NCBI GenBank assembly: GCA_945878775.1
Contig: CAMCUQ010000011.1
Coordinates: 1-39,575 of the forward strand
Direction: 5' to 3'
Source: Chthonomonas calidirosea
GTDB taxonomy: Bacteria; Armatimonadota; Chthonomonadetes; Chthonomonadales; Chthonomonadaceae
Length of the DNA: 39,575 nt
Within the stretch, counting starts at the first letter, position 1, and each line of letters opens with the position of its first letter. The notes under the pieces were generated by a model. It did no database searches. It was given only the letters and a program-made list of their open reading frames with translations, and was not told the DNA's origin. The translations under genes and the position numbers were made by a program. Positions 13,890 to 23,992 of this stretch are shown here, piece by piece.

Positions 13890-15398
13890 CTAATCCAGCT
13901 GCCCATTCCGATAGAGTTGCTCCCTTGCAATGTGTGCCACATCGGGATTAGAACTCGTCTTAAGTTGCTTGAGGATAGGATGCGCCTCCGCAATTCCCAT
14001 CTCACCAAGTGCCACAGCTGCCCAGCGTTGGGAGTTCGTGTTTTGGCTCTGTGCCGCCTGTTGGAGGGTCGGCAATACGACAACTCCAATACGCGCTAAT
14101 GCAAGTGCAGAACGATAGGCAGTAGCTTCGTCGCCTTTTTGAAAAGTGGCAATGAGAGTGGGGGCAGCAGACTCGCCAATTGTCGCCAAAGCGGTCTGCG
14201 CCGTACTCCCGATAATCTCGGTGTCGGATTCTCCCAAAAGACTCACCAATGCCCCCACGGCTCCAGCATTTTTGGGAAAACCGAGTGCCAAGATAGCCAC
14301 AGTACGCAGGTTTTCTGACAGGGTTTTGTTGCTAGCAATGCTGATAAGAGCGGTATTCGCTTCTGGAGCGGCGATCCCCTGTAGAGCCTGAGCAACCCCA
14401 ACCTTTGTTATCTCATTCCCAGTGTTCAGAGTTGCAATACACTTTTGAAGCACCATGCCAACGGGGGGAGCATCTGCCTTTGGGCGTCCTGCCCGCGCAA
14501 TAGACGCAGAAGCAACGGAGCGCAGTTTGAGATCGGAATCGTTCAAAGCCTTGAGCAGGGTATCAATGGCAGTGGGGGTTGCAATTTTCCCAAGCCCTAC
14601 TGCGGATTGAGAGCGGGCTTCGTCGTCGTCGTCGGTATTGTTGATCGCCTCGGTGAGCATCAGTTCGCCCGAAACATCGGCGATCAGTGCAATGGCTCCA
14701 ATACAGACACGACGCACTTGTGCGGTGTCCTTGTGCATTTTCTCATTGAGAATGGAAATAACCGCCTTATCACCAATCTTGCCCATCGCCTCCACCGTCG
14801 CGACACGAACCCCCTCATCTTTCTCTTCCAGATAGGGCTTTAGTAGGGGCAGGCTGGTTTGGCTCTCCTTCGCAAAGAGTCGGCTTCCGAGAACCGTCCC
14901 CACAGAGGCACGAGAGTCTCCCTCTTTCTTGAGATATTCCACTAGGGAAGGGATCGCGTTGGACTGGGGTCCCACCTTTGAGAAGACGAGAATACACCCC
15001 TTCTTGACGTTGTTATCGCCATCCTTCAAACCTGGGAGCATCTCTTTAACATGGTCTGGTGTCTTGAGACCGATAGCGATAAGGGTATTGACGGCACGCT
15101 CCCGCACCTTTTTATCTTGGTCCTTGAGGAGTGGTAACACCTGCTTCACGGCGGCAGGCGTCCCCAATGCCTCTAGGGACTCCGTGGCTTTGAGGCGTGC
15201 CTCAACAGTTTCGCCCGTAATGGCATCCATGAACTGCTCAGCCTTAATAAGCTCCGTCGCGGCGTTCGCCTGCGCCTGTTTGTCCCCGCTATTCATCCCC
15301 TCCACAAGCCCATGTATCCGCCGACTATGGCTCACTGCAAGCCCAACGACGCCAAGCACAAGCACCAAAAAAACGATGTAGTTTAAGTACTTCTTCAC
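13890..15398 (-). CDS. membrane-anchored HEAT-repeat protein
   Basis: An N-terminal signal-anchor (YIVFLVLVLGVVGLAVS, about residues 5-21) is followed by roughly 12 HEAT/PBS-lyase-type helical repeats to the C-terminus, for example AAVKQVLPLLKDQDKKVR and AIDTLLKALNDSDLKLR. Repeats of this type form a solenoid for protein binding; no enzyme motif is seen. The solenoid probably faces the periplasm if the anchor is N-in, which is inference. The ORF begins at GTG with a GAGAGGGG-like purine tract upstream. It is the last gene of the signalling operon, 43 nt after the kinase, and ends just before a strong terminator. It may be a scaffold or a target of the kinase/phosphatase pair. Confidence 0.8.
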   Translation of the reverse strand: MKKYLNYIVFLVLVLGVVGLAVSHSRRIHGLVEGMNSGDKQAQANAATELIKAEQFMDAITGETVEARLKATESLEALGTPAAVKQVLPLLKDQDKKVRERAVNTLIAIGLKTPDHVKEMLPGLKDGDNNVKKGCILVFSKVGPQSNAIPSLVEYLKKEGDSRASVGTVLGSRLFAKESQTSLPLLKPYLEEKDEGVRVATVEAMGKIGDKAVISILNEKMHKDTAQVRRVCIGAIALIADVSGELMLTEAINNTDDDDEARSQSAVGLGKIATPTAIDTLLKALNDSDLKLRSVASASIARAGRPKADAPPVGMVLQKCIATLNTGNEITKVGVAQALQGIAAPEANTALISIASNKTLSENLRTVAILALGFPKNAGAVGALVSLLGESDTEIIGSTAQTALATIGESAAPTLIATFQKGDEATAYRSALALARIGVVVLPTLQQAAQSQNTNSQRWAAVALGEMGIAEAHPILKQLKTSSNPDVAHIAREQLYRNGQLD

Positions 15399-15441: not shown

Positions 15442-17202
15442 CTACACATGCGAAAGTATATTTATGAGCATACTACAGACTCCCACCCCCGCACAGAACA
15501 GCGCAAAAGCCCATTGCTTCCAATAGCTCCCTCGGAAAAGCTGCCAAACCGTCAAACACAAAAACCCAAATCCCACAAAGACAACATAGCGATGTCCATA
15601 CTGAAAGAGGCTGGCAGCATTAGCGGAAAGCATGCTCCCAAGGAACATAAACGAGACTCCTGCCAAAAGCCCTGGCAAAAACCGCATCCCAACTTGGGTA
15701 TCTGCGCTCTTGCATATCAAAAACAACATAAGACACATGAAGGCGGTAGAAGCGACCGCAGGTGGGTCCAACCAACTTGTTCCCCCTCGTCCTGCCACAA
15801 TCGAAACAAGAAAACTGGGAGCCAACGAGAGTAGCAGTAACGGGACATACCACAGTCCAGCCTGAGCCAAAGTCAATCGAGCGCGAAGCACCTCTACGCG
15901 CAAGGGAAGGCGCATTTTGCCTGCCTCGGTCACCACCATCAAAGTATCGTCAAAAACTCCGGTCTGCTCAAAGCGTCCGCTATGTACCGTGAGGGTAATA
16001 GATTGGTTTGGATGCTCAAATGCACGGGGGTGTACGGTCAGCCACTCTGGCTTTTTCTCTACACTGCCAATAATAGCTCCTCGCGCCCCTTTGACTCGCA
16101 CCTTAATCTTCTTACTCTTGAGGTCTCCCTGATGCACTTGCCCAAACAATACCCTCTCTGGCGTCACTTGAAGCTGTAGGGCAACCTCTTTACGTTGAAA
16201 AATATTTTTCGGCACAGGAGGCGCAGACTCCTGCTTGTTTAGCACATTTATTGGAGTAAGAGGCACTTCAGCGACCACGGTTCCAATATCAGTCTGCACT
16301 GGCAGGGTTTTCAAGTCCCATTCTTGGGCAGGAAGGTGCTCCTGCTCTGCCATCTCTTGCGCCACCAGCAGAGTGGCACTCTCTACCCCCTTCCCTTCTT
16401 GGAATCGCTTGAGGTCGTCCCGAAAGTCTCCCGAACGGGCATACCGCTTCGCCTTGTTCTTGGTCAGGGCACGATCCAGAATCGCCTGTATCTCTGGTGC
16501 GACACGAGGTAGATAGGTCTCCAAGCGTTCTGGGGTTTCGTTCTCCAGCAGTCGTTTCCACGCAAAGGGGTCTTTTATTTTTCCTCTTTCGACTTGAAAA
16601 GGACGATGCCCCGTCAGCATCTCAAAGAGAGTCACCCCCACTGCCCAAATATCGGACTGATGGTCGGAGCGATCCTCTTCCGCAAAATCCTCTGGAGCCA
16701 TATAGGCATAGGTTCCCGCACCGCCCGCATAGGCGTTTGTGGAGAGAATCTCTGCTAAGCCAAAGTCGACAATCTTCACCTGCCCCTCACGCGTTATCAG
16801 AATATTGGCGGGTTTGATGTCTCGGTGAACGGTCTGCATCGAGTGAGCATAATCCAGCGCGTCGAGTATCTGAATGGCGTGTTCTAGAGATCGCTCTAAA
16901 GAGAGTCTGCCCTCACCTCGTAGCTTTTCCTGTAGATTCTCCCCTCGCACATACTCCATATCTATCACGACTTTACTGCCAATCCGATCCACTCCATTGA
17001 CCCTCACAATGTTGGGATGACGCAGACGATCCATGACCCGCGCCTCCTCCAAGAAACGCTGTAGGTCTCCCGCCTGCACATCGACCTCCTTCAGCGCGAT
17101 CTGCTTGTTGAGAAGCGTGTCCTTCGCCAGATAGACGATGCCAGAGACTCCATGCCCTAGCACGTCAAGCCGTTCATATTTTCCTAGCATTCCGAGTGGC
17201 AT
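15442..17202 (-). CDS. membrane serine/threonine protein kinase with Ig-like domain
   Basis: An N-terminal Hanks-type kinase (about residues 8-270) is complete: LGHGVSGIVYLAKD, the Lys in IALKEV, VHRDIKPANIL, IVDFGLA and YMAPE. A linker leads to an Ig/BACON-like beta domain (about 335-445, with PEWLTVHPRAF). About five hydrophobic helices follow (about 455-585) with almost no tail. Classical PknB-type receptors have one TM and an external sensor. Here the Ig-like domain precedes the membrane, so it should be cytoplasmic, and sensing may occur in the membrane. It is 6 nt downstream of the PP2C gene, so the two are co-translated and very likely act on the same targets. Confidence 0.9.
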   Translation of the reverse strand: MPLGMLGKYERLDVLGHGVSGIVYLAKDTLLNKQIALKEVDVQAGDLQRFLEEARVMDRLRHPNIVRVNGVDRIGSKVVIDMEYVRGENLQEKLRGEGRLSLERSLEHAIQILDALDYAHSMQTVHRDIKPANILITREGQVKIVDFGLAEILSTNAYAGGAGTYAYMAPEDFAEEDRSDHQSDIWAVGVTLFEMLTGHRPFQVERGKIKDPFAWKRLLENETPERLETYLPRVAPEIQAILDRALTKNKAKRYARSGDFRDDLKRFQEGKGVESATLLVAQEMAEQEHLPAQEWDLKTLPVQTDIGTVVAEVPLTPINVLNKQESAPPVPKNIFQRKEVALQLQVTPERVLFGQVHQGDLKSKKIKVRVKGARGAIIGSVEKKPEWLTVHPRAFEHPNQSITLTVHSGRFEQTGVFDDTLMVVTEAGKMRLPLRVEVLRARLTLAQAGLWYVPLLLLSLAPSFLVSIVAGRGGTSWLDPPAVASTAFMCLMLFLICKSADTQVGMRFLPGLLAGVSFMFLGSMLSANAASLFQYGHRYVVFVGFGFLCLTVWQLFRGSYWKQWAFALFCAGVGVCSMLINILSHV

Positions 17203-17208
17203 GGCGTT

Positions 17209-18771
17209 CTACGGGTTCCTTGGTGTTGCAGAGTTCACCTCTGCATTGGGTGACGGCTTGGGTGCGATAGGCTTCTTGGCTGGTTCTGTCTCGAAGGCAG
17301 GAATACTATAGAGATGCTGGCGCGAAATATAGAAGAGGTCACCAGAAGGGGCAACGGCTAGGGCAGTGGGAGAAACAACCTTCCCTTTCCCAATATCGTA
17401 GCGAATGCGCGTCCCCGCACTGTCAAATTTGAAGATACTCTGCGTGGGCGGGTGCGTCTGATAGCGGTTTCCGCTCTGATCGTAGATTACCCAGACAGCG
17501 GGAGGAGTCTGTTTCAATGCTGCTTCTGGCAGATCGGGGCGCCCCGGCATAGGCTTCAACTCTCCCTTACCGATTAGATGCGAGATATGCCCCTCTTCAT
17601 TCGCCACAATAGGCTTGCCCTCTTTGTCTAGCTGAAGAAAGCCACTCTGCACCTTTTCAGTACTCAGGGCGACCACTGCTCCATAAAAAAGAGGTTGAGA
17701 GGTGCGCGGTTCCACACGAACAGCCACAGGGGGAGGGACAACGGGTAGGGTTTTGGGTTGCAACTTCGGAATATGCACTAGCCATGTCCACGCCAAGCCC
17801 GATGTTAGCCCCACTACCAACATACAAAGAACGACCAAGAGAGCCACATTGCTTTTTTGAGGTGAAGGGTTGGAAGGAACAGCAAGGGCGACCTCCTCCC
17901 TCTCTCTCTGGCTTGCGGCACGTAGCTCCTCGCGCCATTTTCCGTCTGGGTCTGTGGTGTTCTCTTCCTCTTCGGAGGGTGTGGATTCTGGAGATTCATG
18001 CAGGGTCTGAGCGGCTACTTTGCCATAACAGAGAACCACTACGGTGATGTTATCTGAGCCACCCGCCTCTAAAGCGGCGTTTACAAGCCGCTCTGACGCC
18101 TCTTGTGGAGAGGAAGACCCCGCCAAAACACGTGCTATTTGGGCATCGGCGATCTCCGAGGAGAGACCGTCGGAGCAGAGTAGAAGCACATCACCCTCCG
18201 TGAGGTTAAGGGGGAAAATATCGGTCTCTAACTCTTCATTTAAGCCCACCATCCGCGTGACCACATTCCGGTGCTTGCTACTTCGTGCCTCTTCACGGCT
18301 CATCTGTCCGCTCTGAACCTGCCTCCAAACCTGCGAATGATCCTGCGTGATCTGGAAAAGTCTTCCCTGATGCAACAAATAGGCGCGGCTATCCCCCACA
18401 TTTCCAACGACGAGCGCACTCCCCTCCAAAATCGCAGCGACACAAGTCGTCCCCATCCGTTGCGTTTCGGAGCGTGCCTCGGCGTTGTTCTGCGCGAGAA
18501 CCTGCTCATTTGCCGTCTGGATCGCCTCTGCCAAAAGCGAGGAACCCTTTATGCCGTCTCCATTATGACGTAGTATGGCTTCGGGAACCGTTTCGGCAAC
18601 GGTGCGCGAGGCAATTTCGCCCCCTTTTACCCCCCCCATACCATCGGCAACAACAAGCAACGCATCCCGCTTTCCGCCCAGATCGGCACGGCGCAAGATA
18701 GCGTAACTGTCCTGATTTGTTTCCCGTCGCTTGCCGGGATGAGTTTTGAAGCCAATTGAGATAGAAATCAT
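17209..18771 (-). CDS. PP2C-family Ser/Thr protein phosphatase with membrane-anchored C-terminal region
   Basis: The PPM/PP2C domain (about residues 5-255) has the full set of metal-binding motifs: RETNQDSY, VVADGMGGVKGG, GNVGDSRAYL, LLLCSDGLSSE and GGSDNITVVV. A charged linker leads to one TM helix (about 310-332) and a C-terminal region of about 185 residues. That region should be extracytoplasmic and looks beta-rich (TALAVAPSGDLFYIS), perhaps a partial propeller. Bacterial PP2C proteins of this kind dephosphorylate targets of PknB-like kinases. The adjacent kinase gene (6-nt gap) is the obvious partner. The external domain is unusual compared with simple PstP, which has only a short tail. 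Confidence 0.92.
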   Translation of the reverse strand: MISISIGFKTHPGKRRETNQDSYAILRRADLGGKRDALLVVADGMGGVKGGEIASRTVAETVPEAILRHNGDGIKGSSLLAEAIQTANEQVLAQNNAEARSETQRMGTTCVAAILEGSALVVGNVGDSRAYLLHQGRLFQITQDHSQVWRQVQSGQMSREEARSSKHRNVVTRMVGLNEELETDIFPLNLTEGDVLLLCSDGLSSEIADAQIARVLAGSSSPQEASERLVNAALEAGGSDNITVVVLCYGKVAAQTLHESPESTPSEEEENTTDPDGKWREELRAASQREREEVALAVPSNPSPQKSNVALLVVLCMLVVGLTSGLAWTWLVHIPKLQPKTLPVVPPPVAVRVEPRTSQPLFYGAVVALSTEKVQSGFLQLDKEGKPIVANEEGHISHLIGKGELKPMPGRPDLPEAALKQTPPAVWVIYDQSGNRYQTHPPTQSIFKFDSAGTRIRYDIGKGKVVSPTALAVAPSGDLFYISRQHLYSIPAFETEPAKKPIAPKPSPNAEVNSATPRNP

Positions 18772-18798: not shown

Positions 18799-18900
18799 TC
18801 AGTCGCGTTCACGCCGAATCAGTCGAAAGAGTTGCCACAGAAAAAGGATAAAAAAAGCGAGTAGTACATACCGTAATAAACCCGCAACTACGGGAAGCAT
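18799..18900 (-). CDS. 33-residue membrane microprotein, FhaB-anchor-like
   Basis: This ORF is too short for the ORF track. An ATG is preceded at 7 nt by GGAGGG, one of the best ribosome sites in the window. The peptide is one hydrophobic helix (LLRYVLLAFFILFLWQLF) followed by a basic stretch, RLIRRERD, and a TGA stop. The pattern closely resembles the N-terminal anchor of FhaB-type FHA proteins, whose gene lies directly upstream of the PP2C phosphatase in actinobacteria. Here the PP2C start follows after 27 nt, and no FHA domain is present. It could be a true microprotein or the stump of an FHA gene. No function can be assigned. Confidence 0.65.
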   Translation of the reverse strand: MLPVVAGLLRYVLLAFFILFLWQLFRLIRRERD

Positions 18901-18995
18901 GGTTGTCCCTCCACACGAGAGATAAGAATCACTCTTCTCTCTTTCAGACGAAGCATGTGCCGATTCGGCGTCACAATTTTGCCTATCTCGTCACT

Positions 18996-21500
18996 TTAGC
19001 GATCTATTTCTATGTGATAGCGCCCACTGATGATCGCGAAAGTGAGTGTGTCGGCTTCACGAGTAAAGCGTCCCCCCATGCTTCCAAGGGGCTTCCCTGC
19101 CTCCCAAACAGTGCGGTTGTTGAGGCGCACTGTGGGGTTCTGGATTCCCTGCAAGGGCAGACGCACATGGGCACGAGTACCATTTGGGACAGTGAGATTA
19201 ACGGTTATGGCGGGAGAGGTGGCTCCCATTGGGATCGCGCTCCCCATGGGGTCTCGCTTGGGAATATCGGTGCGGGTGTGCCAGCCAAGCTCAATGTCTC
19301 CCCTCACGGTGGGAACAACAGTACGAAACCAAGTGAGATGCCCCGGATGTGGCTCCACGCTAAACTCTTCAAAAGCGGGTTGCAGGGGGCGTATCCCTGC
19401 GATTTGCGCCATTAACAGGTAGGTTGGAGCGGCACTCCATGCATGACAAAGGCTCCAGTGGGGTTCCCACTGCTCCCAGAATGTGGTTGCGCCTGCATCC
19501 AGCATGGGCTTCCAACGCGCCAAAATAGTGTCCATTGCCCAATCGTACTGCCCATTCGCAAAGAGTAGTTCCAGCAGATAGTAGGCGAAATAGGGAGTTG
19601 CGATCTCTACCTCTTTTGACCTGCCCGGAGTGCTCAGAAAGTCGAATATTTGCGCTCTCTGCCTCGCATCGGTGATGCCCACTAAAGCACACAGAACATT
19701 GGACTGCTGACTGGTTGCCTCCGTTGGATGCCCCTCAATGCGGCTATCGGCATAGAAGCCTTTGATTGGGTTCCAGAGTAGATCGTTGATGCCCTCTTTG
19801 ATCTCACTCGCGCCCATCTCCCACTGCCCCCCTTGCTCTGGATAGCCCAAGGCACGCGCAATCCGTGCACAATACTCCAAAGCCCAGTATGCTAAAGCGT
19901 TGACGGAGGCGCTCTGCCCCTTGGTAATCACATTTGCCCAATCGACAAAGACCCAGCCAGGTAAATCACAAAGTAACCCCTCCTCGTCTCTCAAGGAAAG
20001 GAGTGTTCTGGCGAGTTTTTGTATTCCCTCCCATAGTTCTGTCAGCAGGGTTTTGTCTTCGGTGAGGAGGAAGTACTCCCACACTGCCACGGGTAAAAGA
20101 CAGCAGAAGGTCGGCAAAACAGGATCGAAGGGGGGATCAGAGGGGAAAACCCCTCGAAACCAACCCGAATCGTCCTGCGACTGAATATATTGCAGGAACG
20201 CCTTACGTGCCAACGCAGAATCCCCAAAGGTGTAGGCGGCGACGAGCATTTCGACACGCATATCCCCAAGCCACTGTCCGCGCTCACGCCATGGAGTGTC
20301 CATGAAGGCATCATCCATGCACAGTTCTGTAGTATAGCGTCCCACCTCCCAAATCCTTTGTAGGAGCGCGTCCGAACACTGAAAATCTCCCCGGTATTGA
20401 ACGGGATACCCACTCGTCTGCATCTCAACAAGAATCTCTATGGGTTCGGGGTTATCGTAAAAATCGAGACGGAGATACCGTAAAGAGCGATGGTCCAGCG
20501 GGTCAAAACGTTGGAACCCTGCGCGAAGATAAAACCGATCCGCATAATGAACATCACACCCTCCCCAGCGGTTGGGATTCATGGTTCCATCGGCTTCTAT
20601 ACGTTCACTATAACCAATGTCGATCTGTCCACCAGAGGCTTTCCGCACAACGAGTATCGGGAATCCGCTCACCTCTTTGCCAAAATCCAAGACCACAGCG
20701 ACGCCCGTTTCTCCCTGTTGTGGAGCAATGGTCAGAAGGGCAGGGTGTCGCCACTGCACAGATTGGGAAGGAGCAGGACGGAGCTGTGTTGCTCTCTCCA
20801 TATCCTCGGCAGGGGTAGGAAGAGGTTGTTCTCCCTCTGGAGGCAGGGGCTTGTGGAGGAGGTGGGTGTGGACGACACGCACGGGCGCAATAGCACGGTA
20901 GAAAGGGAGCGGAATATCGCGCGGCATGAGGCGCAACCATGGCGCACATCCCACTTTACCTATGACACGCACTCTCTCCCATTTTGAATCGTCGAAGCCT
21001 TTCAGGTTCCATCCCACAGGCTCTTCTCGTGCATCAAAAACTTCGGGGTAGGCAAGTTGAATGCTCATTTGTGGAAAGCCGGTGCGGTATGGTGCAACCG
21101 CGACACACCACTCCTCCCCTGTCCCAAAAACCTGCGTGCTACCATCTGTGAAAGTGATCTCTACTTCTAGCAGGAAACCGGGTGAGCCGAGTCGAGAGTA
21201 GCAGGTTCCGACGCCGTAATGGGTCACAAACGCGGCAAAAAGGTTCTCGCCCGCCTTGAGTTGGGTAGGAAGCTCGTAGAGATCATAATACTGATAGGCA
21301 GGCTCGCTTCGTGCGGGACCATGCCCCAACATCTGCCCATTGAGCCACAGACGATAGCGCGTATCGGCACAGACTTTGAGGGTGGCTTGTGCTATCTCGT
21401 TGTCGGGAAGCGTGACAACTCCACGAAAATAGAAATGCCGACTGCTCTCCATTGAGGCACGGCTCCATATCCATTCTGATTGCCAACTCTGCTCTTCCAA
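18996..21500 (-). CDS. alpha-L-rhamnosidase-like glycoside hydrolase (GH78-type)
   Basis: At 834 residues it has the order of GH78 proteins. An N-terminal beta-sandwich (about 20-190, with YRLWLNGQMLGHGPAR) leads to a second sandwich and then a six-hairpin (alpha/alpha)6 catalytic domain from about residue 360. The catalytic-region signature reads DTPWRERGQWLGDMR, matching the acidic DxPxRxExxxWxGD pattern. A C-terminal beta domain follows (about 735-834). No signal peptide is obvious, so it may act in the cytoplasm on imported oligosaccharides. The start is TTG with GGAAGGG upstream. An L-rhamnonate-dehydratase-like gene at 37549 fits rhamnose use. Exact substrate unproven. Confidence 0.8.
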   Translation of the reverse strand: MEEQSWQSEWIWSRASMESSRHFYFRGVVTLPDNEIAQATLKVCADTRYRLWLNGQMLGHGPARSEPAYQYYDLYELPTQLKAGENLFAAFVTHYGVGTCYSRLGSPGFLLEVEITFTDGSTQVFGTGEEWCVAVAPYRTGFPQMSIQLAYPEVFDAREEPVGWNLKGFDDSKWERVRVIGKVGCAPWLRLMPRDIPLPFYRAIAPVRVVHTHLLHKPLPPEGEQPLPTPAEDMERATQLRPAPSQSVQWRHPALLTIAPQQGETGVAVVLDFGKEVSGFPILVVRKASGGQIDIGYSERIEADGTMNPNRWGGCDVHYADRFYLRAGFQRFDPLDHRSLRYLRLDFYDNPEPIEILVEMQTSGYPVQYRGDFQCSDALLQRIWEVGRYTTELCMDDAFMDTPWRERGQWLGDMRVEMLVAAYTFGDSALARKAFLQYIQSQDDSGWFRGVFPSDPPFDPVLPTFCCLLPVAVWEYFLLTEDKTLLTELWEGIQKLARTLLSLRDEEGLLCDLPGWVFVDWANVITKGQSASVNALAYWALEYCARIARALGYPEQGGQWEMGASEIKEGINDLLWNPIKGFYADSRIEGHPTEATSQQSNVLCALVGITDARQRAQIFDFLSTPGRSKEVEIATPYFAYYLLELLFANGQYDWAMDTILARWKPMLDAGATTFWEQWEPHWSLCHAWSAAPTYLLMAQIAGIRPLQPAFEEFSVEPHPGHLTWFRTVVPTVRGDIELGWHTRTDIPKRDPMGSAIPMGATSPAITVNLTVPNGTRAHVRLPLQGIQNPTVRLNNRTVWEAGKPLGSMGGRFTREADTLTFAIISGRYHIEIDR

Positions 21501-21611
21501 AAGTATCCCTTCCTTGCTTCTACTAGGGGCTATTCTACCCTATTTCAAAAGTGTTCGCTCAATTCAGTTTGACGTGTTCACAGGGCATAAGGTCACTCAG
21601 ATTCAATCAGG

Positions 21612-21617
21612 TATAAT
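21612..21617 (+). promoter_or_regulatory. possible -10 box for the small membrane protein
   Basis: A perfect TATAAT lies about 130 nt before the ATG at 21748, in the divergent interval upstream of the rhamnosidase. No clear -35 is seen, so the call rests on the hexamer alone. Nothing else was recognised between 21501 and 21747. Confidence 0.35.
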
Positions 21618-21747
21618 CAAAAAAAGAGAGGCGAAAGTAGAAGCAGTGGGGAGCTTGATGCCAAGAGTGCAACTTCGTGACATCATGACTGACGACAACC
21701 GCCGTGTGGGAGTGTGTTTGCCGTCGATAACAGCAAGGAGAAGACGT

Positions 21748-22128
21748 ATGGTAGGCGGATTCATTGGAGGGATCGTGGGTGCAATCGTGCTTTCCATCAT
21801 TGCAACGGCTTTGTATGCGATCTTTGCACCACAGGCGTTTGGAGATGGGCAGTTTGTGTTTGTCTACTTCTTCACGGTTCCGTTTGGGGGACTGTTGGGG
21901 GGCGCGTGGGGAACTGCTATTGAAATAGCGAAGCAGAAACCTCATTTTGCGGGCTGGCTCTGCGTCGGCGCGGGGGGATTGGTAGCAGCCTTTCTACTCT
22001 TTTGGATAAGCGCGCAGAGCAACTTCTTAGATCGACTAACTGCGCCTTGGTGTTCTGTCCCCCTTCTTGGGGCAATCATCACTCTAGCGCGGGGCATCTG
22101 GCTACTCTGGAACCATAGAAGGGGTTAA
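21748..22128 (+). CDS. small membrane protein, unknown function
   Basis: The ORF track opens at 21514, but the ATG at 21748 has AAGGAG 7 nt upstream, and the protein from there is a clean 126-residue membrane protein. I therefore treat the earlier part as untranslated. Four hydrophobic segments are visible: GGFIGGIVGAIVLSIIATAL, FVFVYFFTVPFGGLLGG, GWLCVGAGGLVAAFLLFWI and VPLLGAIITLARGIWLLW, followed by a basic tail, NHRRG. I do not recognise a family. It is not tightly linked to its neighbours. The first segment is glycine-rich (GGFIGGIVG), a common helix-packing pattern and not diagnostic. Confidence 0.6.
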   Translation: MVGGFIGGIVGAIVLSIIATALYAIFAPQAFGDGQFVFVYFFTVPFGGLLGGAWGTAIEIAKQKPHFAGWLCVGAGGLVAAFLLFWISAQSNFLDRLTAPWCSVPLLGAIITLARGIWLLWNHRRG

Positions 22129-23119: not shown

Positions 23120-23992
23120 TTAAAAGTGAGCGGAACCGACACCATTTTGGACATCGTTTACTGCCTTGCTTACGCTTACTGCAAGGACAAGACCGAGAAT
23201 GACCACCGCACCTATAACATATCCCCAAGTGTTGTTGTTACTGATACGATTATTGCGAAACTCGCCCTCCGCAATGATCAGGTTGCCACGTTTGACCTGC
23301 AAGTTTGTCTTGCCGAGGATATCACGGGGGCTCTCCACCACATAGATACGTGGGGAAGCGACAAGAAAACGTGCCTCCTTATCACCCACCAGAATATGCA
23401 GGTCGTCTGTCCTGCTAGGAAACGGCAGATTCAACACAAGAGGACGTCCTGCTTGTCCTTTTACTGGTAGGCTTATCCTGTCTGTGTTTGGACTTGCGTT
23501 CGAGGGAAGTTTGCCACCCATCTCAGACAACACGGGGAGTGATAGGACTATGCGCGCTAACTCTTGTTGGGAGGCATCGGTCAGGACAAGTGCGAAACCG
23601 TCACCTTTATTGTCTGTGGGCAGATTCCAGTGGTGCACAGATTCTTTGACCGTCTGGCTTTGAGTGGCAATAGAGAGGATATAGTTGCTTAGCAGAGTGT
23701 GATTACTCGCCCTGTCGTTCTCGTTTTTCCCTTTCGGCTCCAGGCTAGCCGTTCCAACGATGGCGTCTTCGGGGCGCATATCCGCTGGCAAAAAGACGCG
23801 GATAGAACCTTGCGGCGTCTTGAAGATGACAGTGTTAAGGATGGTATCGGTCTTTTGAGTGACTTGTACCCGGCTCCGTGCCTTTGGCGGCGCGTCTTGT
23901 GCTCCTACAGCACTAGCGAAACCTGTGAGGAGCATACTCAGTGCTCCCACATTCAAAAGTCCTATTCTAATGCATTTTGTCGTGTGATTCAT
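23120..23992 (-). CDS. exported, C-terminally anchored protein of unknown function
   Basis: The N-terminus is a signal peptide (GLLNVGALSMLLTGFASAVGAQ, cleaved near residue 31). A beta-rich region of about 220 residues follows, and a TM helix near the C-terminus (WGYVIGAVVILGLVLAVSV, about 256-274) leaves a short tail. A VFLPADMRPEDAIVGTA segment and the later ARFLVASPRIYVVESP look like extracellular beta-sandwich strands. I recognise no enzyme motif or named family. A GAGGAAG Shine-Dalgarno precedes the ATG. It converges with the split HEAT gene (31-nt gap) and is otherwise isolated. It is probably a single-pass surface protein. Confidence 0.6.
   Translation of the reverse strand: MNHTTKCIRIGLLNVGALSMLLTGFASAVGAQDAPPKARSRVQVTQKTDTILNTVIFKTPQGSIRVFLPADMRPEDAIVGTASLEPKGKNENDRASNHTLLSNYILSIATQSQTVKESVHHWNLPTDNKGDGFALVLTDASQQELARIVLSLPVLSEMGGKLPSNASPNTDRISLPVKGQAGRPLVLNLPFPSRTDDLHILVGDKEARFLVASPRIYVVESPRDILGKTNLQVKRGNLIIAEGEFRNNRISNNNTWGYVIGAVVILGLVLAVSVSKAVNDVQNGVGSAHF

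Follow-up and report, generated by a model that had tools for sequence, protein, structure and literature searches.

Studies of FhaB treat the protein as a phosphothreonine reader that acts in cell-wall and division signalling. Members of its family (FhaB/FipA, Rv0019c type; NCBIfam NF049868) are proteins of approximately 160–320 aa that combine an N-terminal single transmembrane (TM) anchor with a linker and a C-terminal FHA domain; the anchor opens with a basic and an aromatic residue and is followed by a basic tail. In mycobacteria the slot of FhaB lies between fhaA and pstP, and the protein belongs to a common pathway with a Ser/Thr kinase, the phosphatase and FhaA (PMC11898655, PMC3989709); mycobacterial FhaB (FipA) is a substrate of PknA and a proposed binder of FtsZ (PMC3989709).

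Here we describe a microprotein gene of Armatimonadota whose products share with FhaB/FipA the single anchor, the basic and aromatic residues at its start and the basic tail, and whose orthologues occupy the same slot between fhaA and a PP2C phosphatase gene, of which the locus analysed below retains the PP2C side only. Unlike FhaB, these products, at 29–43 aa, have neither linker nor FHA domain and, because the latter is missing, we do not regard them as members of the FhaB family. Like bacterial regulatory single-TM microproteins in general, they are small, have one TM helix and are encoded beside a presumed membrane partner, but their origin is traceable, in that they appear to be split off from a known signalling protein rather than to have arisen de novo. 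The best explanation, to which we assign a probability of roughly 70%, is that the gene is the anchor of a split FhaB, acting at the membrane with the PP2C phosphatase. Literature searches, which covered few of the subscription journals, turned up no description of an FhaB that is split or lacks its FHA domain.

A 33-codon gene in front of a membrane phosphatase

The window, meaning the whole stretch of DNA analysed, comprises 39,575 nt from Chthonomonas calidirosea. On its minus strand, at 18900-18799, lies a 33-aa ORF whose product, translated from the sequence, is MLPVVAGLLRYVLLAFFILFLWQLFRLIRRERD*; a single hydrophobic helix is followed by a basic tail, where the ORF ends, and 27 nt separate its stop from the ATG of the PP2C gene (18771). 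The features of the locus are as follows:

18799..18900, minus strand: single-TM microprotein, 33 aa, very probably a free-standing FhaB-type anchor (HMM, conservation, selection, anchor-profile scoring against controls, NCBIfam FhaB matches of orthologues)
18907..18912, minus strand: Shine-Dalgarno GGAGGG, 6 nt 5' of the microprotein ATG (read from the sequence)
17209..18771, minus strand: PP2C Ser/Thr phosphatase, Stp1/IreP-type, with a single TM helix (near residue 310) and an extracytoplasmic part at the C-terminus (NCBIfam Stp1/IreP, 245 bits)
15442..17202, minus strand: Ser/Thr protein kinase with a PknB-like kinase domain and C-terminal TM helices (score under the cut-off of the full PknB_PASTA model)
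13890..15398, minus strand: HEAT-repeat protein with an N-terminal hydrophobic segment, found 3' of PP2C or the kinase in several relatives
18996-21500: alpha-L-rhamnosidase, the gene upstream of the microprotein

Two further ORFs of the window, at 23120-23992 (minus strand, 290 aa) and 21514-22128 (plus strand, 204 aa), belong to no Pfam family.

At just 33 codons, and with no match to a sigma-70-type promoter found nearby, the ORF might be taken for a chance reading frame without a product, of the short and hydrophobic kind that happens to follow a good Shine-Dalgarno; indeed, a protein of this size is easily overlooked by standard gene finding. We identified orthologues of the PP2C gene in 125 of 151 relatives' genomes, and short TM ORFs like that of the window in their upstream regions. 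A hidden Markov model built from 20 such ORFs lying 5' of the relatives' PP2C genes recovered the microprotein in its own genome (E=8.9e-13) and orthologues in at least 35 of 291 Armatimonadota genomes (whole-genome search, E<=1e-3), or approximately 45 when loci read by eye are included. These orthologues fall into six families and are nearly always encoded directly 5' of a membrane PP2C or directly 3' of fhaA, and every match above 38 bits lies at the PP2C locus or behind fhaA. A Pfam search of the peptide gave no consistent family. Among approximately 106 genomes outside Armatimonadota there were no matches at E<=1e-3, nor were there any at 1e-3 in 151 genomes of one other phylum that possesses FhaA, where three weak matches appeared at E<=0.01, one of them to the anchor of a full FhaB.

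Selection on the peptide is strong. Pooled over nine species of a related genus (g23), pN was 0.026 against a pS of 0.433, such that the peptide is near-invariant while synonymous sites have diverged; among pairs of the window's congeners, dN/dS was 0.10–0.32 in five of six, the sixth being saturated. The microprotein is a real protein-coding gene under purifying selection, and because it is conserved and strongly selected in a related genus, a chance ORF, against which the synteny also speaks, can be set aside. The first-pass annotation, which had seen only this DNA, had suggested a free-standing microprotein behind a near-ideal Shine-Dalgarno and a search of related genomes for its conservation upstream of PP2C; both the ribosome-binding site and the short form held up, and the search found the peptide conserved either there or behind fhaA.

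A gene placed between two others could also act as a leader or coupling device, passing ribosomes on from fhaA to the start of the PP2C gene, with a peptide of little importance. In 13 of 31 loci the start codon of the microprotein shares one base with the fhaA stop (ATGA/GTGA), and in most of the others the two lie within 12 nt, as such a device would lead one to expect. Set against this are the far greater conservation of amino acids than of synonymous sites, the specific motif GLL[RK][YF] ... F ... L..[RK]R[DE] that is kept across families, and the retention of the microprotein at loci that lack fhaA or PP2C as a neighbour; we consider pure coupling highly improbable. The gene does appear dispensable at times, since four genomes with a long FhaA and PP2C (G004, G014, G008 and G068) are without it. 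Loci at which a long FhaA adjoins PP2C and the microprotein is missing (L077, L078, L085 and L122) look like secondary losses.

Likeness to the FhaB anchor

Searched against NCBIfam, six of 21 orthologues matched the FhaB/FipA model NF049868, with a best E of 0.0013, and no other NCBIfam model was matched by more than two. In the alignment of the best ortholog shown (14.8 bits, against a curated cut-off of 125 bits, which is not reached), residues 5-32 lie on profile positions 5-32. The window copy itself had no NCBIfam match. We therefore compared the peptides with a profile of the anchor only, built from 22 FhaB anchors, using 443 unrelated TM segments as controls. The window copy scored 14.4 bits against a control maximum of 10.0. 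It also exceeded every one of 200 full shuffles and, when only its hydrophobic positions were shuffled, 199 of 200. Across all orthologues the profile separated microproteins from controls with an AUC of 0.91, and the reverse test gave 0.95. The shared pattern opens the helix with G-L-L-[RKH]-[YF], has an F at the centre and closes with an [RK]-R-[DE] tail.

TM helices easily come to resemble one another, and several single orthologues score no better than shuffles on the FhaB-anchor profile. The case for homology therefore rests on the group, on the position and on the best-scoring members. The same facts might be explained by a TM peptide born independently, whose occupation of the fhaB slot is coincidence and whose likeness to the anchor is convergence. 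This we judge very unlikely: the slot is the same, and so are the length and the register on the FhaB model of NCBIfam; the [RK][YF] pair and basic tail are common to both; the AUC values were obtained for the group against real TM segments; and a search behind fhaA in lineages with the microprotein found no FhaB. We are thus left with little doubt that the peptide is a free-standing anchor of the FhaB type.

No FHA gene is present at the window locus, where the upstream neighbour is the rhamnosidase, and FHA matches in the same genome lie solely on contigs other than the window's. The first-pass description of a TM helix and basic tail like the N-terminus of FhaB, in the position of fhaB before the phosphatase gene and lacking the FHA domain, therefore agrees with what we find. 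A recent truncation of an FHA gene was considered and rejected, as the same short form occurs in congeners and in six families; as it is only other families and phyla that have a full FhaB there, the arrangement reflects an old, stable split rather than a fresh truncation.

FhaA and the fate of the FHA domain

In most relatives the gene 5' of the microprotein, and hence its adjacent partner, encodes FhaA (FhaA_N, PF12401, plus FHA), here a protein of approximately 400 aa with FhaA_N and two FHA domains. In other families of Armatimonadota, FhaA is short, carries a single FHA domain and precedes a complete FhaB with TM anchor, linker and FHA domain, which often lies 5' of PP2C; this FhaA-FhaB pair is also present in two other phyla. 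In the FhaA tree the long proteins form one clade (support 100/99), which makes a single origin of the altered architecture probable, and the lineages that bear the free anchor likewise form one clade. In one family (f32; L086 and L088), a short FhaA is followed by neither FhaB nor the microprotein, and its FHA domain groups with the first FHA domain (FHA1) of long FhaA.

The second FHA domain of long FhaA (FHA2; for example L066 3481-3714) forms a distinct clade. It is slightly more similar to the FHA domain of FhaB than to the other classes, FhaB giving the best foreign profile in 20 of 30 cases, and the best tree found with outgroups places the two together, a joining that is not rejected (p 0.44–0.50). 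Joining FHA2 with FHA1 is not rejected either; it costs 13.5–16.4 log-likelihood units (p 0.16–0.27), the figures with outgroups being 13.5 units and an AU p of 0.27. A plain duplication of FHA1 is accordingly disfavoured by the HMM comparison and the tree, though not rejected by the latter. The Ser and Asn that bind phosphothreonine, retained in 22 of 22 FhaB FHA domains, are mostly lost in FHA2, which is therefore probably a pseudo-FHA domain. Judging from these comparisons, we favour, without regarding it as proven, that FHA2 is the domain of FhaB moved onto FhaA and subsequently decayed.

Since the microprotein is anchor-like and sits in the fhaB slot, since the lineages with a free anchor form one clade, and since FhaA gained an FHA domain, the gene is best read as a split FhaB. 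It would descend from the N-terminal anchor of FhaB, which in an ancestor of several Armatimonadota families would have split, the anchor staying in place as an independent gene with fhaA on one side and the PP2C gene on the other; FhaA would have gained a second FHA domain, most likely that of FhaB itself, which later decayed.

In the genus of the window, fhaA has moved elsewhere. It lies on other contigs in three genomes (G001–G003), and the microprotein has remained with PP2C; a loss of FhaA from the genus is rejected by the same observation. The gene was not found in the assembly from which the window comes (G000), which is 65% complete. Two FHA proteins of that genome, on contigs C92 and C122, were considered as the missing FhaA and rejected, as they have no FhaA_N domain.

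Candidate partners at the membrane

A match to PP2C is present in all 35 genomes that have the microprotein, and PP2C is the sole component found in every one. The phosphatase retains its TM helix in 22 of 22 cases examined alongside the microprotein, even where its extracytoplasmic part is shortened (L081 and L082). Three genomes (G021, G024 and G029, all incomplete assemblies) have the microprotein and PP2C but gave no ortholog of the window kinase, and co-occurrence thus favours PP2C over the kinase. Given that PP2C is present in every genome with the microprotein and keeps its helix where examined, a subunit that contacts the phosphatase helix to helix is our first choice, and a tether for FhaA our second.

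The tether would make the microprotein the anchor half of a two-subunit FhaB that binds either the second FHA domain or the FhaA_N domain of FhaA and keeps that protein at the membrane beside PP2C and the kinase. It would account for the gene's place 3' of fhaA with overlapping or nearby start codons at most loci, and for the gain of an FHA domain by FhaA in the same clade. In one family (f24; L083, L117, L119, L120 and L121), moreover, the microprotein immediately follows fhaA while PP2C and kinase are paired at another place in the genome, an arrangement that FhaA as a partner fits equally well. Against the tether, the microprotein stayed with PP2C after fhaA moved off in the window genus, and it is kept beside PP2C in genomes without detectable fhaA (G021, G029 and others); in all, fhaA was not detected in five genomes with the microprotein (G021, G024, G028, G029 and G030), whose assemblies are incomplete. 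We regard the tether as a doubtful but serious alternative.

The most likely role of the microprotein, as far as its distribution and sequence can indicate, is that of a transmembrane partner of PP2C. Its predicted topology is N-out and C-in, with the basic RR[DE] tail in the cytoplasm, and the conserved basic-aromatic pair in the helix and the conserved helix face may form a TM-TM contact with PP2C, possibly also with the kinase or FhaA. Like the anchor in an intact FhaB, it could thereby hold the phosphatase at the membrane or tune it there; the first-pass annotation had suggested that it may tune the phosphatase or the kinase. That PP2C is the direct partner is quite possible, and we put it forward tentatively.

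With somewhat greater reserve, we suggest that the conserved core of FhaB function may be its membrane helix rather than the domain that reads phosphothreonine, the helix being a dedicated transmembrane subunit of PP2C that survived alone in this clade while the FHA domain moved to FhaA and decayed. If so, the anchors of intact FhaB proteins in other phyla would be predicted to do the same job. A clade that keeps only the FhaB helix beside the phosphatase would imply a function of the helix in its own right, and amounts to a natural separation-of-function experiment. It also illustrates that a protein of fewer than 35 residues can belong to a core signalling operon and yet be missed.

The genome of the window carries a second phosphatase-kinase locus (L072, G000:C122, 790-4709), in which genes for an FHA-FHA protein with a zinc ribbon and without FhaA_N, a PP2C and a kinase lie together. 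The microprotein was not found at this locus, which is resembled by two loci in relatives (L079 and L080).
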